Assembly (NCBI GenBank): GCA_002245135.1
Contig: NGBS01000871.1
Coordinates: forward strand, 186,001-250,000
Origin: Proteromonas lacertae
Lineage: Eukaryota; Sar; Bigyra; Opalinata; Proteromonadidae
Reading direction: 5' to 3'
DNA: 64,000 nucleotides
Shown here: in pieces, positions 4,146 through 59,477 of the stretch
How the letters are laid out: each line of letters starts with the position of its first letter
How positions within the stretch are numbered: position 1 is the stretch's first letter
Notes under the pieces: generated by a model
Databases searched by the model: none
The model's input: the letters and a program-made list of their open reading frames with translations, nothing else
What the model was told of the DNA's origin: nothing
Position numbers and translations under genes: made by a program

Positions 4146-5966
4146 ATGATTATTAAAAGTGAAATATGTAAAAATGAAGGGTATATATGCATTATCGGCT
4201 GTAATTATGTTTTTATTAGATTAATTCGAGAAGCTGTAAAATGCGGCTTTGGTGATTTGAGAGTGATAGTAGAAAATGAAGAAATTAAAACATTCAAATT
4301 TATTCTTTATGTATGTAATGAAACCTTCAGAAGATTATTGGATGATCCTCTCTTCGAAGAACCGTTAAAGTTGTGTGATGAATGTAGTAAAGAAAGTTTC
4401 TTGATGTTAGAAAAATATTATCAAGGTATAGAAATTAAGATAACTGAAAAGAATTGCGTAGAACTATTAGCTATCTGTGTATGTTATAATGAAAACAGAA
4501 TTATAAGTGCAGTAAGTGATTATATTATAAATCATTTAAATGAAAACATTGTTGTTGATTTATTAAGTAAAAAGGAGATATTAAGAAGTGAAAGTTTGAA
4601 GGATTTGAAAGAAGAATTTGAATATTTCTTAAAGAATGAGAATTACAAAATAGTGAAAAATGAGTTATTAAATTGCATATCCATTGACCATCTTGCACAG
4701 TTATTTTCATTAGGAGTAATGTTTAATGGAAGTGAAGTTTAATTATTGAAATTATTGATTGACTATTGTAACCACAATTTAAACAATTCAAAAGTAGTAG
4801 AAAAAATGAAGAGAATAATTGAAAGATGTAGTTTTGATTCAAAATTACAAAATGAGTTAAATGATGAAGAAAAGAAGGTATTAAACGATTTATACATCTC
4901 TCTTAATGTAAAAGCAAGTGAAAAATATTCTATTCGATATTATTCTCTTCCAGAAGTAAAGAATGTGTATTTTTATGATTTCTTAATACATTATTATCCT
5001 GAAGAAGATATTCAAGAAATAATATTTAATAGTATATAAAATTATAGTAATTTCTTATAGAATCTCACTTAGTTTCTTTAAAGAGTGAAGATATTTCATG
5101 TGATATTGATAAACTATTGAAAGAAGGTAATATTAGAATTATTATGTTAACTTTGCAATTATATGATGGCTTATATATGAAATTTGATGAAGATAAATAT
5201 TCTATGATTCTAGATGTTATTCTTAATACTTATACAAACATTTATAATGAAGATAAACGAATGTTGTTAATGATGCAAATAAAAAAATTCATTACTGATG
5301 ATGATGATGAAAAGAATGATGTAATATTTGAAAAACTGAAAGAAAAATGTGGAATAGAGTTGTTGTATAAGTTATTTAAAGATGAAAAGATCTTAGGTTA
5401 TAAAAGATATTCATCATTATTGAATTATATGCATAAATTTAGGTTAGATGATGCTGAGTGTAGATTATTAGATTCAACAGTAGAAGATGAAGAAACAAAG
5501 AAAAAGATAAAATGTATTGATATTCATTAACACCTTATTATATCATAGATCATAAATTAAAATCAATCTTTTATTCTGATGATCGAAACAATTATAATGG
5601 AGATTGTTGGTATTCTTCTTGTAGTCATGAATTACATTGTTAATTTATAATTGGAGATAAAATTGATTTAAAACCAATAATTGATAATATTATAGATGTT
5701 GAGAGTATAACAATTGAACCTAGTATAATAACTTATTACATATATATACATATATATATTTATTCTTCATTTTAGAACTTCCGTCTGGATTATCTTTTGA
5801 TCAAAACGCTGGAATTGTAAGTGGAAAAGCTAGTGTATGTATTAATCAGAAATACACAATAGCAATTAAGAATGTGCATGGTTCAAAAAAAGTAAAAATT
5901 GACCTTACTATCAAAAGAAAAAATGAAGATAATAACTCTACTGCAAATAGGTATAGATATTTTTAA
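4146..5966 (+). pseudogene. BTB-BACK protein with He_PIG-like tail, interrupted by two in-frame stops
   Basis: The first ~120 residues resemble a BTB domain (GDLRVIVENEEIKTFKFIL, then a LEKYYQG strand) followed by a BACK-like helical region. The frame is broken by TAA at 4740-4742 but continues in the same frame with normal protein sequence. Two short introns later (one begins GTATATAAAA near 5035, one begins GTATTGATAT near 5513) it meets a second in-frame TAA at 5640-5642. A last exon after an intron ending near 5774 encodes LPSGLSFDQNAGIVSGKAS, the signature of a putative Ig-like (He_PIG) domain. A further intron at the 3' end is possible, moving the stop to about 5997. The 22039 gene has a related BTB-BACK region. 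GCTTGA lies 10 bp before the start. A recent pseudogene or stop readthrough are both possible. Confidence 0.55.
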
Positions 5967-6306
5967 ATAATACAGCAACTGCGCTATTAAAACTTGATTT
6001 TGACATAATTCTACTATTTATATGTTGTTTCAGCTTAAATAATTTCATAAATGTAATCTAAGCCAAGTGATAATGCAAATTATCATGTTTTTGTAACATA
6101 ACTAAGCTTCATTGGAGTAATAGGCAACTACAAAATTTTCCATGAAAATAAGCGAATAAATCAAGAGATAGTAGCTATTTGTATAAAAATACATCCTATC
6201 CCTTAAAAGATTTTCAACCAAATTAATTCTAAATTACTCAAACAATGAAAAAAGCTTGATAAAATTTTAGTTAACTTTTTACCCTTTTGTCATTTTTGAA
6301 CAGAAT
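5967..6306. other. intergenic region, no gene seen
   Basis: About 340 bp without a supported frame. It contains AAAGCTTGA near 6252, about 48 bp before the next start codon. Nothing else was recognised. Confidence 0.6.
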
Positions 6307-7611
6307 ATGGAGATTATAATAGTTTTATTATTGGTTTCTATGATAATGTATATCATCTTATCAAAAATAAACAAGAGTAAGTCATACTTTTTTAATAGCC
6401 AGTTAGCAACTAGAAGTTTAAAAAGTGATAAAATAAACAGCTGGCTTATAGATGGGTTTAATGAGTTGAAAATCAGTCATTATTCAAAACTAAAGACAGC
6501 TATGTTGTTGATTTGTTATAACAGAGATAAGTATTTAGAAAGAACATTAAAATCTGTTTTGAAACTATACAATTTGCCAAATCCTCCATCAAAGCCAGAT
6601 TTAGTCATTAGTCAAGATGGAAATGATAAAGAAGTAAGTAAAGTAATAAAAGATTTTATAAAAGAAAATAAAGAGAAAATAAAAACAATTCATATAAATC
6701 ATGAAGTAGCAAAAGCCAGAGATGGATATAAAAGACTGGCAATTCATTATGGTTGGGCATTAAAACAGATATTTGATGAATTGAATTATAAACAAGTAAT
6801 AGTAATAGAAGATGATTTAGAATTTGCTGATGATTTTCTTGAATTCTTTTATGGTTTATCTGATATAATGAGTGAAGATAAATCGTATAATATAATTATG
6901 TAATATTTTTTTAATAGAATAATGTGTCTTAGTGCTTGGAATGATAATGGTTTTCCACAGAATGTAGAAAATCCAAGTATATAATATATATAATATATTA
7001 ATATAATAATAATAATAGAAGCATTATATAGAACTGATTTTTTCCCTGGTTTAGGATGGTTAATGAGAAAAGACTTTTGGGATGAAATAAGAAATAAATG
7101 GCCAAAAGCATATTGGGATGATTGTATTAGAGATAATAAAATTCGTAAGAATAGAGTATGTATATATCCTGAAGTTAGTAGAAGTTATACATTTGGTTCA
7201 AAAGGAACAAGCTTTGGAAGTAGAGCTAATTCACCAAATTCATTTTTTACAAAATATTTATTAAATATTAAATTGAATGATAAAAGTGTGAAATGGAGTG
7301 AGATTAATTATAAACCATTACTTAAGAATAATTATGATATGGTAATAAAAGAAGTTGTAAAAGAAAGTAAAGAAATAAATATTGAAGACTTATCCAGTAT
7401 ATTAGAAAAAAAGAGTGATAATGTTGAAGTTTATAAAATATATTATGAAGATATTAGAGATTACAAAAGGAAGTTAAGAAAAATGAAAATGTTTGACAGT
7501 TTGAATAATGGTGGTGGTATTGGAAGAGGAAGTTATCATAGTCTATCAATAAAGAGAAATAACAACAAATTAATACTATTAGTGCCAAAACACTCAACTT
7601 TTTATGTTTAG
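6307..7611 (+). CDS. GT13-family GlcNAc-transferase I-like glycosyltransferase, intact copy
   Basis: Three exons joined by introns at 6885-6917 and about 6979-7019 give about 409 residues. Residues ~2-18 form a hydrophobic signal anchor, as in type II Golgi enzymes. The catalytic domain shows AMLLICYNRDKYLERTLKS, DLVISQDGND and VIEDDLEFADDFLEFF, whose EDD matches the metal/UDP-sugar motif of MGAT1. CLSAWNDNG and TDFFPGLGWLMRKDFWDE follow, all typical of GT13 (MGAT1/POMGNT1). MGAT1 adds GlcNAc to Man5 N-glycans in the Golgi; the acceptor here is unknown. From about base 6437 to 7679 it is nearly identical to the inverted copy at 30730-31976, but the first ~45 residues differ. TGTTTGTT is not seen right after the stop. 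Confidence 0.85.
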
Positions 7612-24622: not shown

Positions 24623-26002
24623 TTAACTGTCATTAAGAGCTGCAACACCTGGTAATAATTTACCTTCCATAACTTCTAAGCTAGCACCTCCTCCAGTTGA
24701 AACATGGCTGATCTTTCCAGATAATCCAGTCTTTTTCAAAGCAGATACTGAATCACCTCCTCCAACGATTGAAATAGCACCATTTTCAGTACATTTAGCT
24801 ACAGTTTGTGCAATTGATAATGTACCTTTAGCGAATGGAGCATATTCAAATACACCCATTGGTCCATTCCATACAATAGTTTTAGCTTCACCTAATTTCT
24901 TAGCGAATAATTCTTCAGTCTTTGGACCTATATCTAAACCTAATTTACCAGCTGGCATATGATCCCAAGCACATACTTCATGAGCTGATTTAGCACTCAT
25001 TTCATCTGCACATACTACATCTACTGGTAATACTAATTCTACACCTTTAGCTTTAGCATCCTTTACTAATTGTTGTGTGAATTCCATTTGTGCTGGTTCT
25101 ACTAAACTCTTACCTACTTCTTTACCCATTGCTTTGTAGAAGGTGAACATCATAGCACCACCGATCAATAATTTATTAGCTTTTTGAATCAATGATTTCA
25201 TTACTGGAATCTTTGTTGATACTTTTGCACCACCAACTACTACAACTAATGGACGTTTTGGATCATCAATAGCACCATATAAGAAGGCTAATTCTTTTTC
25301 CATTAACATACCAGCAGCAGCTCTCTTGCATAACTTAGCAACACCAGCTGTTGATGCATGAGCTCTATGAGCTGTACCAAAGGCATCATTGACGTAGTAT
25401 GTTGCTCCTGTTGATTCTACTAATGCTTTAGCGAAATCTGGCTTGTTCTTTGTCTCACCTGGGTTGAATCTTACATTTTCTAATAACATTAAATCTCCGT
25501 CTTTTAATTGATCAGCTTGTTTCTTTACAACTGGGCCTGTGACTTCGGGTACATAGTAGACTTTTTTACCGAATAATTCTGATAATCTGTTAGCTACTGG
25601 GTCTAATCTTAATTTATCATCAACCTTCTTTGGTTTGCCTAAATGAGTGCAGACTACTACACGAGCTCCAGCTTCTGATAATAATTTAAGAGTTGGAATG
25701 GCAGCTCTGATTCTTGTATCATCGGTAATCTTTCTTGATCCATCCTTTGCAAGTGGTACATTCAAATCACATCTTACAAATACAGTTTGTCCCTAATTTA
25801 TTGATAATAAACAATGTATAATATACTTTTAAGTTTTCTGATGCAATGAGTTTTTTTACTGTTAATTTATTAGCTGGATGATTAGCTGGTAATGCAGAGA
25901 ATGATCTCAAGGTCATTTTTGCATATAAACCACTTTTTAATACAGAAGATGATGTCTTAAATACGGCCTATAGTATAAATGCAATTAAATCCATACTTGC
26001 AT
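24623..26002 (-). CDS. PGK: phosphoglycerate kinase with mitochondrial-type presequence
   Basis: Three exons (26002-25997, 25967-25827, 25792-24623) give 438 residues. The core shows all PGK marks: VFVRCDLNVPLAKDG, LLENVRFNPGE, FGTAHRAHAS, VGGAKVSTKI, IVWNGPMGVFEY and VGGGDSVSAL. It makes 3-phosphoglycerate and ATP from 1,3-bisphosphoglycerate. Cytosolic PGKs begin near the NKLTVKKL segment. Here ~33 extra residues precede it (MQAVFKTSSSVLKSGLYAK, MTLRSFSALP), rich in Ser, Lys and Arg, without acidic residues: a typical mitochondrial transit peptide. The first exon holds only ATG CAA. Without the 29-nt intron after it the reading frame has a stop, though Met18 (MTLRSFSA) could be a second start. 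It is divergent with GAPDH, 153 bp between starts. Codon usage is visibly more constrained than in neighbours, as for highly expressed genes. Confidence 0.93.
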
Positions 26003-27208
<1,206 letters not shown>

Positions 27209-30729: not shown

Positions 30730-31976
30730 TCATTAAATCAAAATATTATTATGATACTCAATACATCTATTTGACTATAAAATACCTAGATCTACCTAAA
30801 CATAAAAAGTTGAGTGTTTTGGCACTAATAGTATTAATTTGTTGTTATTTCTCTTTATTGATAGACTATGATAACTTCCTCTTCCAATACCACCACCATT
30901 ATTCAAACTGTCAAACATTTTCATTTTCCTTAACTTCCTTTTGTAATCTCTAATATCTTCATAATATATTTTATAAACTTCAACATTATCACTCTTTTTT
31001 TCTAATATACTGGATAAGTCTTCAATATTTATTTCTTTACTTTCTTTTACAACTTCTTTTATTACCATATCATAATTATTCTTAAGTAATGGTTTATAAT
31101 TAATCTCACTCCATTTTCACACTTTTATCATTCAATTTAATATTTAATAAATATTTAGTATAAAATGAATTTGGTGAATTAGCTCTACTTCCAAAGCTTG
31201 TTCCTTTTGAACCAAATGTATAACTTCTACTAACTTCAGGATATATACATACTCTATTCTTACGAATTTTATTATCTCTTAATACCAATCATCCCAATGA
31301 TGCTTTTGGCCATTTATTTCTTATTTCATCCCAAAAGTCTTTTCTCATTAACCATCCTAAACCAGGGAAAAAATCAGTTCTATATAATGCTTCTATTATT
31401 ATTATTATATTAATATATTATATATATTATATACTTGGATTTTCTACATTCTGTGGAAAACCATTATCATTCCAAGCACTAAGACACATTATTCTATTAA
31501 AAAAATATTACATAATTATATTATACGATTTATCTTCACTCATTATATCAGATAAACCATAAAAGAATTCAAGAAAATCATCAGCAAATTCTAAATCATC
31601 TTCTATTACTATTACTTGTTTATAATTCAATTCATCAAATATCTGTTTTAATGCCCAACCATAATGAATTGCTAGTCTTTTATATCCATCTCTGGCTTTT
31701 GCTACTTCATGATTTATATGAATTGTTTTTATTTTCTCTTTATTTTCTTTTATAAAATCTTTTATTACTTTACTTACTTCTTTATCATTTCCATCTTGAC
31801 TAATGACTAAATCTGGCTTTGATGGAGGATTTGGCAAATTGCATAGTTTCAAAACAGATTTTAATGTTCTTTCTAAATACTTATCTCTGTTATAACAAAT
31901 CAACAACATAGCTGTCTTTAGTTTTGAATAATGACTGATTTTCAACTCATTAAACCCATCTATAAGCCAGCTGTTT
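30730..31976 (-). repeat. inverted duplicate of 6437-7679
   Basis: About 1.25 kb, including two introns and ~65 bp of 3' flank, matches 6437-7679 almost base for base in inverted orientation. Identity starts inside exon 1 and ends in the 3' flank (GATTTAATGAT). The copy here is about 4 bases longer because of single-base insertions. Confidence 0.85.
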
Positions 31977-32089
31977 ACATTATTGCCTTTGTATTTTGAC
32001 ATTTTTATTAAATGTGATTTATTTTTACAGAATTTCGATAATGCAATATACACTACACAAAAAGTTAATAAAAGCAAAGTAAACAACAT
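30796..32089 (-). pseudogene. GT13-family glycosyltransferase, second copy with frame damage
   Basis: The same enzyme as at 6307-7611: AMLLICYNRDKYLERTLKS, VIEDDLEFADDFLEFF and GLGWLMRKDFWDE are all present after splicing. The signal-anchor exon differs (MLLFTLLLLTFCVVYIALSK). Relative to copy 1 there are three one-base insertions within ~25 bp near 31285-31305. They restore the frame overall but create a TGA in the WDDCIRDN region. A fourth extra A near 31118 truncates the C-terminal part. Substitutions are very few (for example Tyr to Cys and Phe to Tyr), so the copy is young or recently converted. All damage is single-base insertion, so consensus error is a fair alternative to a true pseudogene. 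Confidence 0.65.
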
Positions 32090-32652
32090 CTCATTATAAA
32101 TTATAAAAAAAAGAGTAAAAATTGAACTTGACTTTTATCAAGCTCTTTTCATTTTTATTTTGATATTATGTGTTTATTGGCTTATATCCTGTATGAATGG
32201 AAGTAGTGTGATATCAGATTAAATATACGCAACACTGTTGTATATAATAACTCAGTTGCTATAAGTTTTTTTAACTACAAACGTCTAATTCCGGTTTATT
32301 ATTATTCCGCATTGAAACCATCCACATGCCTTAGTCATTTTATATACACTTCATATTGTTATTATAATAACAGTACAAATACTGTACATTTCGATAATGC
32401 AATTATACTTACTATAAAAAAGTGATAAGAATGAAATTAAAATAATGAATGTTTTAATTCTTTTAAATCACCTTCATCATATTTATATATAAGACTGGAC
32501 GTTATTTAATCTGATATAAAGAGTATTAATGGAAAATAAGAAATTGAATAGAGTTAATAGCTTATGTGAATTTAAGAAATTAATTAACAATAATCCCAAC
32601 CTTATCATGTCACAATAAATAATTAACTAAAAAAAAACACATATATAATTTA
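32090..32652. other. intergenic region with a 15-bp terminal inverted repeat pair
   Basis: About 560 bp without a coding frame. TCAAGC at 32138-32143 lies ~50 bp upstream of the GT13 copy. An exact 15-nt inverted repeat is at 32211-32225 and 32503-32517 and bounds a ~307-bp segment that could be a small non-autonomous element; no target duplication is seen. Confidence 0.5.
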
Positions 32653-39496: not shown

Positions 39497-42400
39497 ATGG
39501 TATATTTATACATTGTTAATTTTAAATGTATTAGCAAGGGACAGCTAATGATGAGACTAACAGAGATTCTTTAAATAAGAAAGCAGGATCTGGAACAAAT
39601 ACTCATAATAGTGTAAATCCTGTTATAATTCCTCAATCTCGTCCATTGACTGCTAATGCGAATGATCCTAAACGAAAAAGAGAGTCGAGAAGAATGACTA
39701 ATGTATTGGATAAAGTATGCATAGACTAATATATCTAATTCATCTAGCTTGGCTCAGGATGTCTAATAGCAGAAAGATTTAAAATTGTTGAAAAAATAGG
39801 AAATGGTTCATTTGGAGAGAGTATATTTATTTTCTAATTATCTATTAAATAGTCGTAAAAGCAATAGATACAACAAACAATAACGAAGTAGCAATCAAAT
39901 TTGAAAATGCAGCAAATAACCATCCACAATTACATATGGAGATGAAAATATATGATGAATTAAAAGGTAATGTCGGTGTACCAGTAGTATATTACACTGG
40001 AGTACAATACAATTACAATATATTAGTAATGGAATTATTAGGAAAAAATTTAGATTCAATATTTGAAGAACGTAAGAAAAAATTTAACTTAAAAACAGTT
40101 TTACTATTATTCGATCAAATGTTAGATAGAATAGAACTGCTACATGAGCATGGTTTCGTCTACAGAGATATCAAACCAGAGAACTTTATGTTTGGAAATA
40201 ATGATAAAAAGGACATACTATACTTAATAGATTTTGGATTATCCAAGCGATATAGAAGCCAATTAACTAGACAACATATCCCATTCAGAGAAGAATCAAC
40301 ATTAACAGGAACAGCAAGATATTGTAGTATAAATGCACATTCAGGTGAACAATCAAGAAGAGATGATTTAGAAGCAATTGGTTATTTATTAGTATATTTT
40401 ATGAAGGGATGTTTACCATGGCAAGGTTTACCAAGAAACCATCAAATACCACAAATGAAATTAATAGAACAAAAGAAAAGATCAATTCAATTAGAAGATT
40501 TGTGTAGAGATTTACCTGATCCATTTAGACAGTATATTGAATATTGTAGAAACTTGGACTTTAAGAGTAAACCTGATTATAGATATTTGAAGAAATTATT
40601 CCACAAATTGGCTGATTCTCAGAATATTGTATATGATAATATATATGATTGGACACCTACTGCTGAAGTTCAAACTAAGACTCAAGTTTATAAATCAAAA
40701 GCAACTACTAAAGATAATAAACCAAAAACAGCTACAGATACTTGTATATATATATTTTTTAATATTTATTTATGAATAGTGTTGGAAGAAATAGATGAAT
40801 ATCGTGATAAATGTCCTTTGTGCTTATGGAGAACATCAGAAGATGGTGAAAGTAATAATGAACATTATTTTGCATTTCAGGAAGGTATTATTGGTAGTGA
40901 TATTATTCATTGTGAAATATATATTGATAATATTGACACACATCATGCAAGATTGTCATGGGATCAAGCTTGTGGTGGTTATTGTATATGTGATTGTAGT
41001 AAACCTGAATATGGAACTTACTTATTATTATCTGCAGAAAGAAGATGTAGAAAGTATATATATTATTATAATATTTCACTTTTTTTTCTTGTTATTATCA
41101 TTACTTTTCCTCCTTTTCATTATTCTTTTTTATTTTATTCTTATCATAGAACTTTTGAATTAAGAAGAGGTGATAAATTCTACATCAGTGAAGCCAGGAT
41201 TGAAGTAGAAATATTACACATTGAATACCATGCAATCTGTGGAGATGAGAATAATAGAAATACATACAAACCATCCAATCCATCACTCAATAAAGTAGAT
41301 TCAGAGAAATCGGAATTTAGATATAACAGTCTCAATAACAACACAACCAATGATAGTCCCAATAATAATAATAACAATAATAACAATAATAACAATAATA
41401 ATAACAATTTTGATTTACCTAAGCCAAAGAAGAAAAAAGGCCATATTCAATTCAATACAATTACTTATAATGATAATGGAGAAACAGAGAAACTATGTGA
41501 TTCATTTGAAGGTGATGATGCTATTAAATATCAAATAAAGGCAAGTATTTCTGTGAAAATACCTATATATAATGATGATGAAGAAAATGAAGAGATTATT
41601 CAATCATCATCTATGTATTTGAACCAAGCTACACAATTTGAAACAAAGTATATTTTATTTTTTATATTATTTTTATTATTAGAAATTATGAATTAACACA
41701 TGACACTACATTTGGCAGTCTAAAATCAAACGATGTAATTCTTCCAGAAATATGCAGTGGAGTTCATTGCAAAGTTTCAATACAAAATGACAAAATCATA
41801 TTAGAAGATTTAAGTGTAGGAGATCCAACAGGAACAAGGATATTAGTATCAAGACCAGTGGAATTATTTGAAAGAGATATTATAATATTAGGAGACTTAG
41901 AATTAGGTGTAATGCCAATTTCAGATTGTCCAATTTATAGTGCACAATGGATTTCTTGTGCTGTAAGAATTATTCCACTGAGAAAGTCAAAGAGAACTCC
42001 ATTATTGAGTAAAGAAGAAGCAATGTCACAGACTAAAGTATTTCCTATACCAATGGAAGGAGAGATTTTGATTGGAAGAGGAACAGATTGTCAGATTATA
42101 TGTGATGATGTATATATATAATAATTATTATTATTATTATCTATATTTACTATAGTATAAAGTAGCAGAGAAACATGCTTGCATGTATTATGAACCAATA
42201 GAACAGAAATATTATATTGAAAGTTTGGTTATGAGTAGAGCTCAAATTACACAGTTATTATTAGGAAGATCTTCCTCAGCATCTAAAGCGCCTTATAAAT
42301 TGAAAGAATGTATATAAATATATTTTTATATATTTATATTATTATATAGCTGATATATTTTGTGTCGGTTCATCACAAATCCAAATAATCGAAATGAAAG

Positions 42401-43874
42401 TAGAATCAATAGAAGAAATAGAAGAAAGAGAAAGAATAGCTTTTGAAAGAGTTCAATCTTTATGGAAAGATGTTTCATTACTTTCACTATTACCAAAAGA
42501 AGTATTTACAAAAGTAGCTGATGCATTTAAACCAATCAGATTCACCAAAGGTTCAACTATTATACAACAAGGTGAAGAATCAGATACATTTTATATCATC
42601 AAGCAAGGAAATGCTGATGTGTTTTTCTACAGAAGAGGCAATAAAATCAGGTTAAAGACATGTGGTCCTAATAGTTACATTGGAGAATTAGATTTGATTA
42701 ATAATTGCAATTATACTGCCACAGTTATTGCTACTTCTGATGTGGTTGATTGTTTGTCATTAGATCAAGCCACTTTTGTCAATTTTGTTGGTCCTTATAT
42801 TGGTGCAATAGGTGAAGAAGCTAGGAAAAGAGATGTTCAAACAATAATCAATGTCTTGGAGAAATTTCCATTTTTTAATTTATTACCAACAGATGTTCAT
42901 GTTGCACTATCCAATCATTTGAAGAATAAATCATTCCATGATGGAGAAGTGATAATAAAAGAAGGAGATACTGAAAATATTGTATTTTATATCATTCTAA
43001 ATGGAGAAGTGACAATCACAAAAAATGAAGATCTATCCTCTGTTATTACAATATTGAAAAATGGAGATTATTTTGGCGAGCTTGCTTGTCTATCCAAAGG
43101 TCCAAGATCTGCTAATGTAATCGCACATGGTTTAGTAGAAACTTTATATTTAGATTTACCTCATTTTGAAGAAATATTATCCAGTTATTTCATTAAATCA
43201 ACCAGTGCTAGAAGTATTAGTGAAGCTTCATCTGGATTAGGAATTCCAAAGACTGATAGGTTTAAATCAAGACATTTGAACGAAAGCAAACCTTTAGCAC
43301 CTGTATCACCACAAAGTGCACCAAGGACTAGAAAACCAGGTGCTTCTAATAGAGCATTACAGTTGTATATTATTATATTATTATTATTTAATTAATTAGA
43401 ATTGGTGATCCTGAATTGAATAGTTTAACTGAAGAAGAATTAGATTTAGGTGAAGATGATGATACAATATTATATGATAGAACAACAGCAGCTCAAAAAC
43501 CACATTATATTGTATTAAAAGTACTGTCTGGACCATTGAGAAGGGAGTTATATATAATAGAAAGTGAATTAATTACAATTGGAAGAGGTGTTTGTACTTT
43601 GTCAATTAATGATTTAAGTTTAAGCCCAATTCATTGTACAATTGAATATAGAGAAGGAGGTTATTGGTTGTCTGATGCTAATAGTGAATCTGGTACATAT
43701 TTACAGTTGGAAGTTGGATTAGCATTTCCTGTTCAAGTGGGTGATGTTTTTAGGATTGGTAATACTGAGATTAATATATTAGGTAAGACAAAGACTCAGT
43801 CTACACCTACGGATAAGCCTGGAGTGACTACACAAACAGCTGATGAGAATGAACATTGTTGTGTAATATCTTAA
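39497..43874 (+). CDS. CK1 kinase fused to FHA, FHA, two cyclic-nucleotide-binding domains, FHA and a CaaX tail
   Basis: About 1,330 residues from ten exons. Exon 1 is only the ATG; a later start at MTNVLDK is possible. The CK1-type kinase is complete: GNGSFGE loop, EVAIKFEN lysine, YRDIKPEN, LIDFGLSKRYR and the CK1 motif LTGTARYCSINAH with QSRRDDLEAIGY. No start codon lies between it and the next part (after an intron at ~40742-40777). An FHA-like domain (GSDIIHCEIYIDN, THHARLSW) follows, then FHA 2 (EILIGRGTDCQI, EKHACMYYEP), CNB 1 (FYIIKQGNADVFF, GELDLINNCNYTATVIA), CNB 2 (FYIILNGEVTI, GELACLSKGPRSANVIA) and FHA 3 (ITIGRGVCTLSI, SPIHCTIEY). Only CNB 2 keeps the phosphate-binding Arg. It ends CCVIS, a farnesylation-type CaaX preceded by a possible palmitoylated Cys. 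It is likely a membrane-bound kinase regulated by a cyclic nucleotide and phosphopeptides. Confidence 0.85.
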
Positions 43875-44563: not shown

Positions 44564-44877
44564 AATGTGTTATTAATTCTGTTTGTTTGGAGTTGTTTAT
44601 TCTTTTTTTTAAATATAACTATATTTTATTTCCAAAACAAATAATACACTTCCTAATGAACAAATTTAATTTAATTGATTATAATACAACCGCATTTAGG
44701 TATTTAGCGAAGAGCAAATGTATCTGATAGTATATATGTTGCAAACTATCTTAGTATCTTTAATAAATAGATTTAATGTATATTGTTATATATAATTATA
44801 TATTTGTTGTGATAATGAGAATAATAATAAAAGGCTTGAATTTCGATTTGATATATTTTCACAAATAAACTTAAAAT
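44564..44877. other. intergenic region before kinase A
   Basis: 314 bp. TGTTTGTT-like tracts at its left end fit the 3' end of the upstream gene. A 38-nt block near 44815-44852 containing GGCTTGA is repeated upstream of kinase B (54149-54188, inverted). No gene seen. Confidence 0.6.
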
Positions 44878-46201
44878 ATGGAATCTAGTGAAATAGAATT
44901 TGAAATCCGAGAAATAGGAAAAGGTAGGCATAGTGTTGTAATGTTAGTTGAAAGGGGTGGTGTTAAAATGGCAAGAAAAGAAATAGATGTGTCAAAACTT
45001 CCTCCTGATGAAGTTAAATCGATAGATGAGGAAATAAAATTATTAAGTGTATTGAGAGATAGAAGTGTGCTAATCTACAAAGAATATAGACATGATAATA
45101 TGAACAACAAATATTACATATACACCGAATATCTTGAAAATGGAGATCTATTTCATTTGATCCAAAAGCAAGTAGCTAAAAGAGAATATTTTGATGAAAA
45201 GGTATAATTATTGTATTATTTGATAATAATAGACTATAAGAGTATATGTTGAAGATATAGCAAATGCATTAAAGTATATTCATAGTAAAGGAATAATTCA
45301 CAGAGATTTAAAACCTGCAAACATCTTTATAGGAAATCATAACAAATTAATAATTGGAGATTTTGGAATAGCAGTAAAAAGTGGTGATAAAGAAGTAAAA
45401 TTAATCGGAACAGCAGGATATATTGCTCCAGAGTTGTGGATTAGTAATCCTCCTAGCTATACAGCATCAACTGATATATTTTCCTTTGGTTGTATTTTAT
45501 ATGAGATATATACATTTCAAATGGCTTATAATGGTGAATCAAATACAAAAATTAGAGATTTAATATTAAATCCAAATTATCAAATACAATTTAATAGAAA
45601 TCCACAAATCTTTAATGTAGAATATCTAATAACAAGAATGTTAGAAAGAAATCCAATGAATCGTATAAGTTTAGATGAAATATTTACTACAATTGAACGA
45701 TGGAAAAATGGAATAAAAATATCAATGAATAGTTCATTTGATAATATAGAAAGTTTAGGTGAAAGAATAGTTAATTCACCTATAAAACATCAACCTATAC
45801 AACAACAAAAACTTCCACAGCAACCTCCTTTACCAGTATTTCCAGTTCTACCAATTCAACAACCAGTTCAGTCCAATAAATTCATTAATATAAGTAAGAA
45901 TCAACCAAATCAGTTAAATCAAGTAATGATGACTATTTATCCACCTCCACAATCACATTCTCCACCTCTTCCACCACCATCACAACAACAACAACCATTA
46001 TCACCTTCAATTTCACCTTCAATTTCACCAACATCACTCTCAGCTCAATTATCTCCTACACAACAAAAACCAATCAAAGTAAATAAATATATAAATATAA
46101 GCAATAATTTGAATAATAAACAAATGCAATATCCTTTATCTCAACCACCAATATCACAACTAAATTTCATTCAATTAAATAATGTTTATCCATTATCTTA
46201 A
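44878..46201 (+). CDS. NEK-like protein kinase A with Pro/Gln-rich tail
   Basis: Two exons around a 33-nt intron near 45203 give about 429 residues. The kinase has IGKGRHSVVML, the lysine in GVKMARKEID, HRDLKPANIFIG, IIGDFGIAVKS and GTAGYIAPELW, so it should be active. The order and spacing best fit NIMA-related (NEK) kinases, which act on flagella and mitosis. From about RGGVKMARKE to SSFDNIE it is almost identical to kinase B (54124, opposite strand), but its first ~30 residues and its tail differ. The tail is Pro/Gln-rich (LPPPSQQQQPLSPSISPSIS) and the protein ends there, lacking the OGFr-like modules of kinase B. Confidence 0.8.
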
Positions 46202-48032: not shown

Positions 48033-51000
48033 TTAAATGGTTTTAAAGATTGGATTTAACTTTTCCAGAAATGTTTTTAAATCTGGTTTTATAACAATCT
48101 TTGATGTATTTTTCATTAATTCTTCAATTTTTCTTTTTAAATCTCCAGTAAATTCTTTCATTTTTGGAATTGTATAAAAATCTTTAATACAATCACATAC
48201 TTTCTCTAAAATTATCCAATAATTTTCATTTTCAATGAAATTGATTTTACTATTACATAATATAATTATCAAAATATACAATTCTTTTGTATTTATATTA
48301 TCAACACTAAACCCCTTAATTTCTATTCCAATTGCCTTTAATGATTTTTGAATTGTTTCATTTACTCTTCCTAAACATTCTTTATTATTCTTTATTTCAT
48401 TGATTTCTGAATCTGTGAAGAATGGTTTTGTTGGAATAATATTCTATTCATTATAAAAACTAAATTACATACAATATTCTTAACAATTGAAGAACAAGAA
48501 GAATTAATTCTCAATTTCTTAAATTCAACTCTACCAAAGTAATAATCTTTTATTTGTTGTTTAAAGTAATCTTCTCCTGATAAAGATTTCTTAGCTGGTT
48601 GAAAACTATTAATTAGATTATTCTTCAGTTTTTTCAATTGATTCTTTATTTCATTTTCTGGAAATATACAACATTCTGTTATTAATTCCAATATATGCAG
48701 TGATTGTCCATCTCTAATAATATATTAAATTACAATATTTATATATACAAATCATCTATATTTGGATGATGTAAACCACTAATATCAAAACGAATATTAT
48801 ATTCAGATAAGAACTTGTTTGATAAATCTAAAATTTTGTTAACTTTTTCTTTATCCAGTTTAAATACTATATATTAATAGAAATTAAATCATATATACAT
48901 TCACTATCATCTTTTGTGAATTTTGGACTTTTTTGATCAATTTTGGGAAATATAATATTATAATGTTCTTCTTTAAAATCAATTGTGTGTAAAACTACAT
49001 TTTTCATCTCTATTAAATCACTTATTTTATAATAATTTCTATCTATTTTCAAAGGAGTTATATCATCATAAAACTGAAAAACTATCTAAACGTCAAATAT
49101 TATATTAATTAATACATTAATTTCATTTTTTTCCTTACTAATTGGTGATAATGGAGGTTTTTTCTTATAATTCTTTTGAAATTCTAATACAGAATTTGGA
49201 ATATCTAAAATGTCATCTAACTTTATTAATTGAGAAAAATCTTTTGCTTTAGTCATTATTTCTTTAATTCTTTCTTCATTTCCTTTGTATTTTGATTCAT
49301 CTAATAATTCTATTTTTTTGTTTAAATCATCATATATTAATCCATATTTCTGTACAAATTTATAAAGAAAATTATTGTATCTTTCGATTGTTCTTGATTT
49401 ATTCTTTTTCATTTCTTTAATATCATCTTCTGTTAGTTTTGGATTATTCTGTTTCTTTGTTGGAAATATCCACTAATGTATTATATAATTAGGAAATATA
49501 CTGGAATATATTTTTCTATATTCAATTTGTTAAAATCATATTCACTCATTTTACATATATCTTCAAAATTATATCCATTTACTCTTTTATACCATAAAAT
49601 AAATTCTTTCTATTTCAATAATACTATTGATTATATACAATTTTAACATTAGGTATAACTGGAGAAACACTTCTATTCAGTGGTGGGGGATTATCAGTTG
49701 ATTCACCATTTATAAAACTGATAATTAAATCTGGAATATCAATCAATGAATAAAATTCTACAATTTCAAAATAACTCTTCATTCTTTTCATTATTCCTTC
49801 TATCTCATTTTTATATACTTCTATTTTACTTCTATCTGTTGATATAACTCTTCTGTTTATCTCATCATATTTCAATCCATATTTGGATAAGAATTTGTTT
49901 ATTATAATTTTGTATTTCTTTTCTAATTCACTCTTTTTTCCTTTTATTTGATATACATCTACTACAGTAATTTTACTTTCTTCAGGAAATAAATACTATA
50001 AAATATAAGTGGTAATAAACTTATACAGGAATAAATTTATCTATTGAAAAACTGTTGAAGTTTGATTGAGTCATATTCACTATCTCATCAAATGTTTTTC
50101 CACAAACAGGTGAAGAAAGTAATAAGAATGATTTCTATTAATAAATAAATTGAAAAATACAATAGGATTTGAAGATGGAGGTGGTGGAGGATATATTTCT
50201 CCTTCCTTTTCATTTATAAAACGTAGAACAGCTGTAGGTATTTTCAATAATTCAATCTGATCTATATCATTTAAAGATATTTTTATTCTTCCCATTAATT
50301 GTTTTATTTTTTCTTCATTTCCTTTGTATTTTGATTCAACTATTATTTTAATTATTTTACTCTTTTCATCATATTTCAATCCATATTTGGATATTAATTT
50401 CTTAAGAAAATTGCCGTATGATTTTTCTACTCTTTTAGTAAATTCTTTCATTTTTCTAATATCATCTTCTGTTAGTTTTGGATTATTCTGTTGCTTTGTT
50501 GGAAATATCCACTAATATATTATATAATTAGGAAATATACTGGAATATATTCATCCATATAGAATTCATTAAATTCATATTGATTCATATTATATATATT
50601 TTCAAAACTGTATTGATTTACTTTTCTGTCAAATAGAATGAAATCTTTCTATTTGATTATTAATATTTTAAAAAATACAATTGCTGTAATGTTTAAATTT
50701 CTGTGATTAATTATCTTTTCTATTAAAGAATAGTATAAATCATCTATTCCACATATTACCATTAAACTATTCTTTATTCTATTTAATACTTTCAATGATT
50801 CATCTCTAACTCTCCAATAACTATTTTAATCATATTAATAGAAATATACTCATAATTATCATTAATTCTAAAATCATTTCCATTTTCAACAACATCATAA
50901 CCATATTTTTCTAATATTAAATGAATTATTTCTTTATTGTTATATTTAAATAAATCATCATTTTGAAAGATCTTTCTATCATTCTCTGTAAATGAAGGAT

Positions 51001-54000
51001 TATCTTGATCAACTATTGGTAATAACCACTAAAATATAATAATAATTATTATTTATACATTCAATTCATTCAATGGATACCATTTTCGAAGGTCTTCATG
51101 TTTCATATTGACATAATCTTTAAACCAATAGCCAGTTTCAGATCTAATCTCTCCTCTATAAAATTTTATTACCTATTTCAATAAATTATAATATATAATA
51201 CATCTGATTCTACATGCATTGTTCCTTTAATTCGATCTTGAATTATTTTATTGATCAAATTGATTTTATCATTTTCTTTGAATGTATCTTTTATGCTTTG
51301 TCTTAAATGCTCTAATACTCTCTTTGTTTCTTCTTTTCCTTTCCATATACTATAATTATTTGGATGTTGCTGAAATGAATTATCTTCAAATTCAACTACA
51401 TATCCATTCTTGATTAATACAACTCTCATTAAGTCATAATAGTATATTTTTATCATTTCATTTTCTACAAATTCTTTTCTTTCTTCTTCTGTAAATTTGG
51501 GTGGATGGATTTGATTTAAGTGAGGAAAGAAAAACTATAATCATTATCAATATAAAATATACATATAAATCATCATGATTAAAATAATTTTGAGATGTTT
51601 TTCCATCTAAATTCATATAATAATCCAATTTGTGTTTATTATATTCTAATTCTACACAATAGAACTTTATTATCTATTCATTATTATATAGAATGAAATA
51701 CGTTTGATTTAATTGCTTTATTCTCTTCTTCTTTATGTTGCTTTGATTCTATTCTTCCATTCTTTACTTTTTCTTTATTCTTGTCTTTTGATTTGTTGTT
51801 TTTATCTTGATTATTTCTTTCTTCAATTATTTGACAATCTATTATTAGTATATCAATATTTTTATTATTACTTTCTAGTAATTCGTTCAATCTATCTAAT
51901 AACTTTGAATCATTAAATGTATCTTTCATACTCTTTATCACTATCTTTAATAAATCAATACATTTTGATTTTGACATATTCTCACTCTTTCTATTATTAC
52001 AATATTACAAATATATATATACAAACATATATTTATTAAAGAATCTATCAACAAATTGTAGTTTTCTTCTATTATATCATTTTCTACAAATTCTTTTTTG
52101 ATTTCTTCATTGAATAATGGTGATAATTGGTTTAAATGAGGAAATAAATACTATTTACATTTAAATATATCATTATATACACTACTATATTTCATATATT
52201 CTTCAATACTTAGATTTTGTTGATAATCATAAACATTTTTTCCATTTATATCTTCTTCAAATATATAGAATTGAATTATCTATAAACAATTAATGAATAA
52301 ATAACAAATACTTTTGATTTTTCACATTCTACAGTCTTTTCTACATTATTTTCTCTATTATCAACTTCTTTCATTATGTCTTTTTCATTTTTTTCTTTAG
52401 GTTTTACCTTTTCTTCTTTTTTTACTTTCTTTCTTTCATCATCATTCTTCTTTTTTTTATCTACTTCTTCATCTGAAGAAGAAGATGATGATGATAATTT
52501 TCTTTTCTTTTTATGATGATGTTTTCTCTTCTTCTTTTCTTCTTCATCACTACTTTCATCATCATTTTCATCATTATTACATTGAGGAGGTGGTGGAGGT
52601 GGAGGTGGTGGATATTGTTGTGGTGGTTGCAGTGGTAGTGGTGGTTGTAATGCCATTAATGGTTGATTACGATTGTTATTAATCTGCTGAGGAGGAGGTG
52701 GAGGTGGAACAAATTGTATTTGGTTATTATTCATATAAAAAGGATAATTATTTGAATATGGTGGTGGAGGTGGAGGTGGAATATTTGGATTATAATAAGC
52801 AGTTTGCATTATTTGATTTGGTGGTGGAGGTGTTGATAAATTTCCACTAAGATATTGATGATTATTCAGATTGTTTAGAATATTCATAAATTTATTTGTT
52901 TGATTTTGATTAGGTAAACTTGACTTTCTATTACTAATTATACTACTAGGTAATGATCTTCCCAATGGGTTATCTTCTACTACTTGAGGAGGGTTAATAG
53001 CAGGTGAAGGAGTAATGGATCTTTGATGAGCTTGTGAATTTGGTCTAACTGGCTGTTGAAACTGTTGTTGTGGTGGTGGTGGTTGTATTTGTGGAAATGG
53101 TTGTTGTGGTAGAAGTGGTTGTGGTTGTAGTGGTTGTTGTTGCATTTGTAGATAAGGTTGTGGTTGTTGTAGGTTTTGTTGTAATGGTTGTTGTTGCATT
53201 TGTAGATAAGGTTGTGGTTGAGGTCTATTTACAACTGTTACACCTAAATTTTCTATATTATCAAATGAACTATTCATTGATATTTTTATTCCATTTTTCC
53301 ATCGTTCAATTGTAGTAAATATTTCATCTAAACTTATGCGATTCATTGGATTTCTTTCTAACATTCTTGTTATTAGATATTCTACATTAAAGATTTGTGG
53401 ATTTCTATTAAATTGTATTTGATAATTTGGATTTAATATTAAATCTCTAATTTTTGTATTTGATTCACCATTATAAGCCATTTGAAATGTATATATTTCA
53501 TATAAAATACAACCAAAGGAAAATATATCAGTTGATGCTGTATAGCTAGGAGGATTACTAATCCACAACTCTGGAGCAATATATCCTGCTGTTCCGATTA
53601 ATTTTACTTCTTTATCACCACTTTTTACTGCTATTCCAAAATCTCCAATTATTAATTCGTTATGATTTCCTATAAAGATGTTTGCAGGTTTTAAATCTCT
53701 GTGAATTATTCCTTTACTATGAATATACTTTAATGCATTTGCTATATCTTCAACATATACTCTTATAGTCTATTATTATCAAATAATACAATAATTATAC
53801 CTTTTCATCAAAATATTCTTTTGTAGCTGCTCGATTTTGGATTTTATGAAATAGATCTCCATTTTCAAGATATTCGGTGTATATGTAATATTTGTTGTTC
53901 ATATTATCATGTCTATTTTCTTTGTATATCAAAACACTTCTATCTCTCAATACACTTAATAATTTTATTTCTTCATCTATCGATTTAACTTCATCAGGAG

Positions 54001-55005: not shown

Positions 55006-55159
55006 TTAGTTTATTTATTGTTTTCTGTTGTTATGTAAATACTTTAATTAGTTCTAACCATTTTTTGTTATTCTTATTTGTCTAGCCGTTTAAATTATAT
55101 GAATATTTATAATAGGCTCGAATTGCTGTTTGAATTTTACATAGAAATTATTTAATATT

Positions 55160-58100
55160 ATGTTTAATAGCAATAATAATAATCAAGTATATACATCTTA
55201 TGGAACACTACAACAAAATGGTCCTAATACTTCTCCATATCAACCTCGTCAAGTTAATAGATATATTTACAGTGCAAATAGAGTAACACAAAATCAAATT
55301 CCATCTTTGATACCTCATTCATATCCGTATCAGCAATCTCAAACTCAACAGAAACAACAAATTAACATTCAACAACAACAACCACCTATTCAACAACAAC
55401 CACCTATTCAACAACATTCAACAACAACAACTTATTCAACAACAACATCCTATTCAACAACAACAACATCCTATTCAACAACAACAACATCCTATTCAAC
55501 AACAACAACTTATTCAACAACAACAACTTATTCAACAACAACAACATCCTATTCAACAACAACAACATCCTATTCAACAACAACAACTTATTCAACAACA
55601 ACCACCTATTCAACAACATCATTCTATTCAACAACAACAACTTATTCAACAACAACAACATCCTATTCAACAACAACAACATCCTATTCAACAACAACAA
55701 CATCCTATTCAACAACAACAACTTATTCAACAACAACAACTTATTCAACAACAACAACATCCTATTCAACAACAACAACATCCTATTCAACAACAACAAC
55801 ATCCTATTCAACAACAACAACAACTTATTCAACAACAACAACTTATTCAACAACAACAACTTATTCAACAACAACAACATCCTATTCAACAACAACAACA
55901 TCCTATTCAACAACAACAACATCCTATTCAACAACAACTTATTCAACAACAACATCCTATTCAATTACTACCTACAATTGAAGAAGAAGAATCATTACCA
56001 GCAATAGAAGATCAGTCTATTTTGGAAGATAGAGATCATATTCAAGAACAAATAATGCAGATTATAAAAGAACTACCAATACACCAGTTACATGATATAT
56101 TTCAACTTTTAGAAATTGTACAGAATCAAAAACAACAAATACTTCCTCTTCTTCATCACCTCACGATGATGCTAATGAAAGTGATGATGAAATTAGTAAT
56201 AAAGAAAAAGAAGACAAAATAGAAGAAAATTCAGATATGGAAAGGAAAGTCGATGAAATAGATGATGATGAAAAGAAAAAAAGGAAAAAAGAAGATGAGA
56301 TGAATAAAGTAGAAGAATCTATTGTATTTGCTTTTTTTGTCATTATTGTTTTATAGATAATTCAATTCTATATATTTGAAGAAGATATAAATGGAAAGAA
56401 TGTTTATGATTATCAACAAAATCTAAGTATTGAAGAATATATGAAATATAGTAGTGTATATAATGATATATTTAAATATAAATAGTATTTATTTCCTCAT
56501 TTAAACCAATTATCACCATTATTCAATGAAGAAATCAAAAAAGAATTTGTAGAAAATGATATAATAGAAGAAAACTACAATTTGTTGATAGATTCTTTAA
56601 TAAATATATGTTTGTATATATATATATATATAATTATAATAGAAAGAGTGAGAATATGTCAAAATCAAAATGTATTGATTTATTAAAGATAGTGATAAAG
56701 AGTATGAAAGATACATTTAATGATTCAAAGTTATTAGATAGATTGAACGAATTACTAGAAAGTAAAATTATTGATATAATAATAATAGATTGCCATCAAG
56801 ATAAAAACAACAAATCAAAAGAAATAAATAAATAAAAAGTAAAGAATGGAAGAATAGAATCAAAGCAACATAAAGAAGAAGAGAATAAAGCAATTAAATC
56901 AAACGTATTTCATTCTATATAATAATGAATAGATAATAAAGTTCTATTGTGTAGAATTAGAATATAATAAACACAAATTGGATTATTATATGAATTTAGA
57001 TGGAAAAACATCTCAAAATTATTTTAATCATGATGATTTATATGTATATTTTATATTGATAATGATTCTAGTTTTTCTTTCCTCACTTAAATCAAATCCA
57101 TCCACCCAAATTTACAGAAGATGAAAGAAAAGAATTTGTAGAAAATGAAATGATAAAAATATACTATTATGACTTAATGAGAGTTGTATTAATCAAGAAT
57201 GGATATGTAGTTGAATTTGAAGATAATACGTTTCAGCAACATCCTAATAATTATAGTAAATGGAAAGGAAAAGAAGAAACAAAGAGAGTATTACAGCATT
57301 TAAGACAAAGCATAAAAGATACATTCAAAGAAAATGATAAAATCAATTTGATAAATAAAATAATTCAAGATCGAATTAAAGGAACAATGCATGTAGAATC
57401 AGATGTATTATATATTATAATTTATAGAAATAGGTAATAAAATTCTACAGAGGAGAAATAAAATGTAAATACATTGAATATAATATAAATTCTTATGTCA
57501 ATATGAAACATGTAGAACTTAGAGGATGGCATCCATTGAATGAAATTAATGTATAAAGAATTATTATTATTACATTTTAGTGGTTATTACCAATAGTTGA
57601 TCAAGATAATCCTTCATTTACAGAAGATGATAGAATGATCTTTCAAAATGATGATTTATTTAAATATAACAATAAAGATATAATTTATTTAATATTAGAA
57701 AAATATGGTTATGATGTTGTTGAAAATGGAAATAATTTTAGAATTAATGATAATTATGAGTATATTTCTATTAATATGATTAAAATAGTTATTGGAGAAG
57801 TAGAGATGAATCATTGACAGTATTTGAAAGAATAAAGAATAGTTTAATGGTAATATGTGGAATAGATGATTTATACTATTCTTTAATAGAAAAGATAATT
57901 AATCACAGAAATTTAAACATTACAGCAATTGTATTTTTTAAAATATTAATAATCAAATAGAAAGATTTCATTCTATTTGACAGAAAAGTAAATCAATACA
58001 GTTTTGAAAATATATATAATATGAATCAATATGAATTTAATGAATTCTATATGGATGAATATATTCCAGTATATTTCCTAATTATATAATATATTAGTGG

Positions 58101-59477
58101 ATATTTCCAACAAAGCAACAGAATAATCCAAAACTAACAGAAGATGATATTAGAAAAATGAAAGAATTTACTAAAAGAGTAGAAAAATCATACGGCAATT
58201 TTCTTAAGAAATTAATATCCAAATATGGATTGAAATATGATGAAAAGAGTAAAATAATTAAAATAATAGTTGAATCAAAATACAAAGGAAATGATTAAAT
58301 GAAATATTTGAAATACCATTTTCTGTATTAGAATTTCAAAAGAATTATAAGAAAAAACCTCCATCATCACCAATTAGTAAGGAAAAAAATGAAATTAATG
58401 TATTAATTAATATAATATTTGATGTTTAGATAGTTTTTCAGTTTTACGATAATGTAACTCCTTTGAAAATAGATAGAAATTATTATAAAATAAGTGATTT
58501 AATAGAGATGAAAAATGAAGTTTTTTACAAACTCAATTTTAAAGTAGAACATTATAATATCATATTTCCCAAAATTGATCAAAAAAGTCCAAAATTTACC
58601 AAAGATGATAGTGAATGTATATATGATTTAATTTCTATTAAAATATAGTATTTAAACTGGATAAAGAAAAAGTTAACAGGGTGTTAGATTTATCAAACAA
58701 GTTCTTATCTGAATATGATATTCATTTTGATGCTTGTGGAAATTTAAATTATCCAGAGTTATATAAGATGTATATCAATTTTAGTTTATTATGTATTTAG
58801 AGATAATCATGCTTTACCATTAATAGCAATGATTACAGAATGTTGTACATTTCCACAAAATGAAATGAAAGAAGAATTGAGAGAAATGAAAGATAATCTT
58901 GATGATGAATTTAAATCAGTTAAACATACAATACAAGATGAATATTACTTTAAACAGCAAATAAAGGATTATTACTTTGGTAGAATAGAATTTAAGAAAT
59001 TGAGAATTAGTTTTTCATGCGATTCAATTATTGAGAATATTGTATGTAATTTTCTTGTATAATGAATAGAATATTATTCCAACAAAACCATTCTTCACAG
59101 ATTCAGAAATCAATGAAATAAAGAATAATAAAGAATGTTTAGGAAGAGTAAATGAAACAATTCAAAAATCATTAAAAGCTATTGGAATAGAAATTAAGGG
59201 GTTTAGTGTTGATAATATAAATACAAAAGAATTGTATATTTTGATAATTATATTATGTAATAGTAAAATCAATTTCATTGAAAAACAACAAAATTGGATA
59301 ATTTTAGAGAAAGTATGTGATTGCATTAAAGATTTTTATACAATTCCAAAAATGAAAGAATTTACTGGAAGTTTAAAAAGAAAAATTGAAGAATTAAAAA
59401 GTAAAAATGAAATTGTTATAAAACCAGATTTAAAAACATTTCTGGAAAAGTTAAATCCAATCTTTAAAACCATTTAA
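55160..59477 (+). CDS. Gln/His-rich protein with OGFr-like modules (inverted copy C), frame disturbed
   Basis: Starts [19 protein letters not shown]. After ~85 residues comes a repeat block (55400-55970), then an acidic/Lys region ([18 protein letters not shown]). From 56350 the OGFr-like modules follow, with the same exon-intron pattern as 48033-52310 but inverted and very similar ([38 protein letters not shown]). In the repeat block the frame from the ATG turns into Ser/Thr/Tyr repeats and stops near 55981. The frame that stays open reads HPIQQQQ and needs one T fewer near 55408. A second shift is needed near 56130. Modules ~5 and part of 4 and 6 of copy B are missing here (junction near 58293), leaving a stop. 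It is either an expressed gene with sequence errors or a decaying copy. Confidence 0.5.
55400..55970 (+). repeat. coding tandem repeat, 15-18-bp units
   Basis: About 30 units of the type CCTATTCAACAACAACAACA alternate with CTTATTCAACAACAA. Depending on frame they encode [13 protein letters not shown] or [10 protein letters not shown]. The Gln frame matches the flanking protein. Confidence 0.9.

Follow-up and report, generated by a model that had tools for sequence, protein, structure and literature searches.

Background

In PKG, cyclic-nucleotide-binding (CNB) domains precede a kinase domain of the AGC type, and in kinases of the Rad53/Chk2 type, which belong to the CAMK group, one or two FHA domains share a chain with the kinase. 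The latter are not known to carry a CNB, nor are the CK1 kinases Yck2 and CK1-gamma known to have CNB or FHA. Here, I describe gene A of Proteromonas lacertae (Opalinata), in which a CK1 kinase domain is followed in one chain by FHA and CNB domains and by a terminal CCVIS. The gene occupies positions 39497..43874 of the forward strand of a window of 64,000 nucleotides (NCBI GenBank assembly GCA_002245135.1, contig NGBS01000871.1, positions 186,001 to 250,000; C139:186001-250000 in the contig numbering used below). Positions given without a contig are those of the window, and all features of gene A lie on its forward strand.

Among the CK1 kinases, CK1-alpha has been described as constitutively active (PMC5968562), and for CK1-delta the only restraint described is that of its own tail (PMC7012598). 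R178 and K224 form the pocket of CK1 for primed substrates (PMC9794997); K224D leaves priming intact and compromises the phosphorylation of the following pSxxS sites, the same being expected of K224A (PMC7012598). S-acylation is known of CK1-gamma and of Yck2 in yeast (PMC11417247). The published kinome of Phytophthora infestans has three CK1 genes and lists CNBs on no kinases but those of the AGC and CAMK groups; the word FHA is absent from the main text of that paper (PMC3019232). A previous sequence-only reading of the locus had assigned CNBs to PKA and PKG and had regarded CK1 as normally constitutive and without cyclic-nucleotide control. Both statements are too narrow, in that CNBs are found on CAMK kinases of P. 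infestans too (PMC3019232) and CK1-delta has an autoinhibitory tail (PMC7012598).

A single chain of CK1, FHA and CNB domains

Gene A runs from an ATG start codon (39497-39499) to a stop codon ending at 43874, in ten exons (39497-39499, 39535-39714, 39748-39820, 39853-40743, 40780-41053, 41150-41647, 41683-42109, 42156-42309, 42350-43364 and 43400-43874) that form a single unbroken frame of 1329 amino acids (aa). The nine introns measure 32-96 nt and are all of the form GTAT...AG. Splice-aware alignment recovered every intron and exon apart from the first, because the aligner does not model one-codon exons; the three paralogues described below (B, C and D) share with gene A an intron that lies at the modelled start or no more than a few codons from it. 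The encoded domain order is CK1-FHA1-FHA2-FHA3-CNB1-CNB2-FHA4-CCVIS. Pfam places Pkinase at aa 73-324, cNMP_binding in two stretches (E 1.9e-36) and FHA in four stretches at E<=1, three of them at E<=0.01. The start, the stop, the domain types and the CCVIS end of the sequence-only reading were all recovered when the gene was rebuilt, and the presence of FHA domains stands; its count of three FHA-type domains is corrected to four on the evidence of Pfam and hhalign.

Kinase and tail are separated in gene A by an intron of 36 nt at 40744..40779, which had been rightly recognised as an intron and placed two bases off (~40742-40777). In the window, all introns are predicted from sequence alone and this one falls exactly between kinase and tail, which by itself casts doubt on a single chain: a CK1 gene lying beside a separate FHA/CNB gene might have been merged by an error of the gene model or of the assembly. 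The paralogues from the same genome settle the matter. Paralogue B has one exon (G000:C1089 380298-383872) that spans from mid-kinase to the stop codon, and in C and D the reading frame is likewise open across the junction, so that three diverged paralogues on other contigs join kinase and tail without an intron at that point. This refutes such an artefact for B, C and D and leaves it barely credible overall. Separate kinase and tail transcripts, the alternative that the sequence-only reading had raised against itself, are very unlikely for the same reason, and the two-transcript reading of gene A was rejected, the paralogues carrying the junction in open frame. The architecture and the single chain of gene A are practically certain. 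The linker introns that the aligner had placed in C (69 nt, GTAATG) and D (117 nt, GTGTGA) were rejected as well, the frame being open through both stretches; kinase and tail are therefore joined with or without them.

The same intron might yield two products from gene A, a kinase-only CK1 when retained and a full-length, tail-controlled kinase when spliced. Retention would bring a stop codon about 10 codons on, and the unspliced open frame (39849-40775) does end within the intron, after the complete kinase domain. Yet B, C and D read through this point in open frame, so that the mechanism cannot be one of the whole family, and short introns are common in gene A and presumably constitutive; such a switch is highly improbable.

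Paralogues and origin of the fusion

Kinase and tail searches of the AT-rich genome (50.2 Mb, 1181 contigs) returned three more fusion genes: B on C1089, with a second copy on C707; C on C511, C143 and C144; and D on C299 and C838. Copies within each group are near-identical, several having broken frames, and are probably haplotypes or assembly duplicates. The proteins of A, B, C and D comprise 1329, 1309, 1335 and 1333 aa, respectively. B-D are 47-51% identical to A, and all three retain the whole domain order, so that the architecture cannot be ascribed to chance.

The last FHA of paralogue D is interrupted by a 50-nt AT-AC intron (G000:C299 ~13371-13322, or 5130-5179 on the reverse strand of L046), which starts with ATATCTTTTT, ends with ATAC and has identical letters in C838. 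It is the sole reading found that restores the conserved HCSIEYR, and it looks like a U12-type intron, judging from the consensus of that class.

Another public data set contains a further match, P0132. This fragment of 575 aa, encoded on a contig of 1928 bases and showing no kinase end, matches paralogue C at 92% and by its sequence is a near-orthologue of it.

In the kinase tree, a single branch sets the four fused kinases apart (support 100/97), B pairing with C (98/79), and the ordinary CK1 of the genome (C802) falls with Blastocystis, with support of 93/94 (in a smaller tree, 86/88). Together with Pythium and Hondaea among the matches of the tail, this placement fits a stramenopile, as slender evidence. 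A homologue of the tail without detectable kinase was found at G000:C356 ~136000-138700 (L050). Pfam matches three FHAs and one CNB in it, the CNB being degenerate, in the order FHA2-FHA3-CNB-FHA4, and a further stretch aligns with the last part of FHA1; the gene is 21-38% identical in the strongest pieces and matches the tail profile at E 3.4e-36 (search space 1000). An upstream exon at this locus resembles FHA1 by eye. No CK1 was found by this gene among the 208 open frames of the 8 kb of L050, searched unfiltered (best E 0.24), which indicates that the tail exists apart from CK1. The tail tree, rooted by this gene, whose branch is very long at 5.1 changes per column, pairs C with D (100/99). 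A single fusion followed by duplication is a plausible account and the simplest one; an ancestral tail protein would probably have been fused to a duplicated CK1 ahead of the divergence of A-D.

One FHA per paralogue with Arg, Ser and His

The Arg, Ser, His and Asn of FHA domains are presumably the face that contacts phosphothreonine. In gene A, FHA1 (40818..41228, aa 396-500) is degenerate and has neither the Arg nor the Ser; in FHA2 (41646..41938, aa 640-725) the Arg is replaced by Ser; FHA3 (42035..42399, aa 758-850) keeps the Arg and has Ala for Ser; and FHA4 (43497..43793, aa 1205-1303) keeps Arg1234, Ser1247 and His1250. Pfam scores FHA2 at 24.5 bits and FHA3 at 23.5 bits (cut-off 20.7), and finds no match in FHA1 when this is cut out and scanned alone. 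Profiles of the four sequences compared by hhalign relate FHA4 to FHA1 (probability 87%, E 4e-6) and to FHA3 (91%), with 16% between FHA1 and FHA3, while the 16 control comparisons of FHA with linker or CNB all stay at <=2.95%. FHA2 reaches just 3.9-9.7% with the other FHAs, so that its assignment rests on Pfam.

Across the family, the Arg is absent from FHA1 and FHA2 in all four paralogues and present in FHA3 in all four, the Ser of FHA3 occurring in C and D only. In FHA4, Arg and Ser are found in A and B only, with T/N and N in their place in C and D, and the Asn of NG(S/T) is Ser throughout. The His is present in every FHA of every paralogue. As a set, Arg, Ser and His thus occur once in each paralogue, in FHA4 of A and B and in FHA3 of C and D, and are absent from the other three FHAs; the FHA that carries the set follows the split of the tail tree into AB and CD (100/99).

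The linker between FHA2 and FHA3 contains a basic stretch, R(K/R)SKRTP (41981-42001, aa 740-746), conserved in all four paralogues. It is a possible phosphorylation site, open to recognition by an FHA within the same protein.

One predicted ligand site in the CNB pair

Aligned to PKG, CNB1 (42526..42804, aa 893-985) has Tyr955 in the position of the phosphate-binding Arg, whereas CNB2 (42871..43194, aa 1008-1115) keeps Glu1077 and Arg1086, the phosphate-binding pair for a cyclic nucleotide. The position in CNB1 reads Y, H, Y, Y in A-D and is thus lost in all four, and the Glu and Arg of CNB2 are retained in all four; the single ligand site predicted for gene A from the loss of the Arg in CNB1 extends, then, to the whole family.

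Searched as a single sequence, the CNB part has its best match in the CNB-repeat protein PCR12 (TGME49_219070, E 5.8e-35), with PKG 5dyk also among the best (E 9e-35); a profile search returned PKG 5dyk at E 1.6e-50, its CNBs lying at chain residues 28-267. A structure model of CNB1-CNB2, as the sequence-only reading had proposed (277 residues, mean pLDDT 82.9, pTM 0.49), matches the tandem CNBs of PKA-R and PKG in a fold search, the best being Toxoplasma PKA-R with cAMP (E 1.5e-24). TM-scores against these matches are low (~0.44), which means that the angle between CNB1 and CNB2 is not fixed or is different. From these patterns, a ligand at CNB2 is reasonably likely.

A CK1 kinase without K224

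The kinase domain (39760..40652, aa 66-352) has Lys101, Asp191 and Asp212 intact, with YRD replacing HRD, and carries the SIN motif. A profile search identifies it as CK1, with CK1-delta as the best solved match (E 4e-120). The catalytic Lys and the Asp residues of HRD and DFG are present in all four paralogues. The CK1 motif that replaces APE reads SIN in A-C and SVN in D, its Ser being retained in all. The HLGIEQ loop of the fused kinases has one residue deleted with respect to CK1.

Gln286 of gene A (40452..40454) stands where CK1-delta has Lys224, in anion site 1; the fused kinases A-D read Q, H, H, Q here, compared with K or R in 119/119 other CK1 domains. The R178 position is kept in 4/4 fused kinases and in 118/119 of the others. 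The comparison set consists of 118 proteins from the searches plus C802, is biased to the best matches of the family profile and is highly redundant, an 80% identity cut reducing it to 34 rows; the residue numbers of CK1-delta come from a manual count in the alignment of the profile search. Anion site 1 is typical of ordinary CK1 and is not the basis of the family name, and by their sequence the fused kinases are therefore a CK1 variant. The loss of K224 together with the gain of FHA domains suggests that phosphate recognition has moved out of the kinase.

Lipid signal and signalling machinery

The CCVIS of gene A (43857..43871) corresponds to CCIMM in B, CCEVM in C, CCLLC in D and CCSTM in P0132. 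The C-terminal CaaX box that had been noticed in gene A is thus kept, as Cys-Cys-a-a-X, in 4/4 paralogues plus P0132, and points to lipid anchoring as likely. Exon-level matches in the genome comprise 13 to class III nucleotide cyclases, 11 to PDEase_I phosphodiesterases and 6, on two contigs, to PPTA prenyltransferase alpha repeats; from these, the machinery for ligand and lipid looks present. Other open frames match both CNB and kinase, for instance C143:37678-39099 (709 aa), and are probably PKG-like.

Searches for the same architecture elsewhere

Three protein searches were run over 5.8 billion proteins; they depend on shared 5-residue words and similar length, and distant relatives could escape them. 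The four-protein profile gave 1071 matches among 7877 candidates, and the best 120 of these 1071 lack Pfam domains of the FHA and cNMP types and match 19-25% of the query length. The tail as a single sequence gave 11 matches among 7992 scored candidates, all with cNMP_binding and covering 16-29% of the query, which include kinases with CNBs, other CNB proteins, and proteins of Pythium and Hondaea. The tail profile gave 2 among 7991 scored candidates, namely P0132 and P0133 (RhoGEF+CNB). No protein combining CK1 with FHA or CNB is present among the matches listed from the 5.8 billion proteins, and no description of a CK1 with CNB or FHA was found in the open-access papers searched. The statement that no family with this order had been described is, to that extent, borne out. 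Within reach of these searches, the combination of CK1, FHA, CNB and CaaX looks new, as a CK1 variant.

Many of the profile matches (P0076, P0078, P0087, P0088 and similar ones), mostly environmental and 1130-1340 aa long, combine CK1 with EF hands; they are perhaps calcium-controlled CK1s, that is, another regulated CK1 fusion.

Proposed mechanism

Taken as a whole, the family can, on balance, be read as CK1 fused to a regulatory and targeting tail (FHA1-FHA2-FHA3-CNB1-CNB2-FHA4-CCaaX) in at least four paralogues and working as follows. The protein would be prenylated, perhaps also palmitoylated on the adjacent Cys, and thereby held at the membrane, and one FHA would read a phosphothreonine on a partner or on its own chain and so pick the target. 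CNB2 alone would bind a cyclic nucleotide, most likely cGMP or cAMP; CNB1 would serve as a ligand-free arm relaying the change, upon which the tail would release or reposition the kinase. With one of its two basic priming residues lost, the kinase may have ceded part of its phosphate reading to the FHA. That the CNB2 ligand controls kinase activity is slightly less likely than not. More tentative still is the proposal of a new class of cyclic-nucleotide-regulated kinases built on CK1, in which one CNB gates the kinase at the membrane and phosphate reading has passed from the K224 pocket to an FHA, the working copy having switched between FHA3 and FHA4.

The tail might instead be a scaffold and address label, with a constitutively active kinase, CNBs and FHAs that are mostly ligand-free interaction modules, and anchoring near the substrates by lipid and partners. 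Most FHA signature residues and the CNB1 Arg are indeed lost, and conservation is higher in FHA4 (73-78% between paralogues, the most conserved domain of the family) and in the helix preceding CNB1 (71-79%) than in CNB2, which at 44-56% is also below the kinase. A membrane CK1 with activity independent of the lipid is known in CK1-gamma3, which is fully active without S-acylation, though its deacylated cytosolic form is called hyperactive in the review that describes this (PMC11417247). Against such a scaffold stand the Glu and Arg of CNB2, kept in 4/4 paralogues while the CNB1 Arg is lost in 4/4, as expected if one site is selected for ligand, and the cyclases and phosphodiesterases encoded in the genome; it is a less likely but serious alternative.

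Several other observations, beside the modest conservation of CNB2, weigh against the ligand-gated mechanism or its details. Next to the CNB2 Arg, on its C-terminal side, A-D have S, T, N and N, so that the ligand may differ by paralogue. Trypanosome PKA-R bound to guanosine or inosine is among the fold matches, and the modelled CNB2 could bind a ligand other than a cyclic nucleotide. FHA4 has lost its Arg and Ser in C and D despite being the most conserved domain. The kinase and tail trees disagree weakly, the small kinase tree leaving the order open. By analogy with CK1-gamma and Yck2, the Cys-Cys end could be palmitoylated alone.

If the ligand-gated mechanism is true, the family would be a natural experiment in the switching of CK1, to which a sensor of cyclic nucleotides, readers of phosphate and a lipid anchor have been added, and cyclic-nucleotide kinases would extend beyond the AGC and CAMK groups. 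The mechanism predicts that one of the two CNBs binds ligand, that each paralogue has a single phospho-reader among its four FHAs, and that the preference for primed substrates is lost.

Other features of the window

Two adjacent glycolytic genes in divergent orientation were recognised by eye, phosphoglycerate kinase at 24623-25792 (-) and GAPDH at 26123-27208 (+). The latter begins with a mitochondrial-looking presequence, a mitochondrial-type GAPDH presequence being a feature of stramenopiles. Three pairs of open frames on opposite strands look, also by eye, near-identical over long stretches (44875-46201 (+) and 52276-53769 (-); 48033-48443 (-) and 59070-59477 (+); 6271-6903 (+) and 31508-32134 (-)); they encode a kinase, an unknown protein and a protein resembling glycosyltransferases, and point to inverted duplications of recent date inside the window. 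A low-complexity tandem repeat at 55145-56222 leaves several reading frames open on either strand (Ser/Thr-Tyr, Gln-rich and Asn-Leu-Phe-rich).

Comparison with known systems

Gene A shares with CK1-delta/epsilon and Hrr25 the kinase domain, its catalytic residues, the SIN motif and the EQSRRDD motif; it differs from them in its tail of ~950 aa with FHA, CNB and CaaX, in the loss of K224 and in an HLGIEQ loop one residue shorter. Like PKG, notably that of apicomplexans, it combines CNBs with a kinase in a single protein, and by sequence the nearest relatives of its CNB part include PKG-like kinases; unlike in PKG, the kinase is CK1 and not AGC, the CNBs come after it, and FHAs lie around them. 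The tandem CNBs with intact Glu and Arg that characterise PKG have their counterpart in CNB2 and not in CNB1, in all four paralogues. FHA and kinase in one chain are common to gene A and Rad53/Chk2. Finally, Yck2 and CK1-gamma are CK1 kinases tethered by lipid via the C-terminal region (PMC11417247), as proposed here for gene A, in which, unlike in them, the Cys pair lies within a CaaX box.

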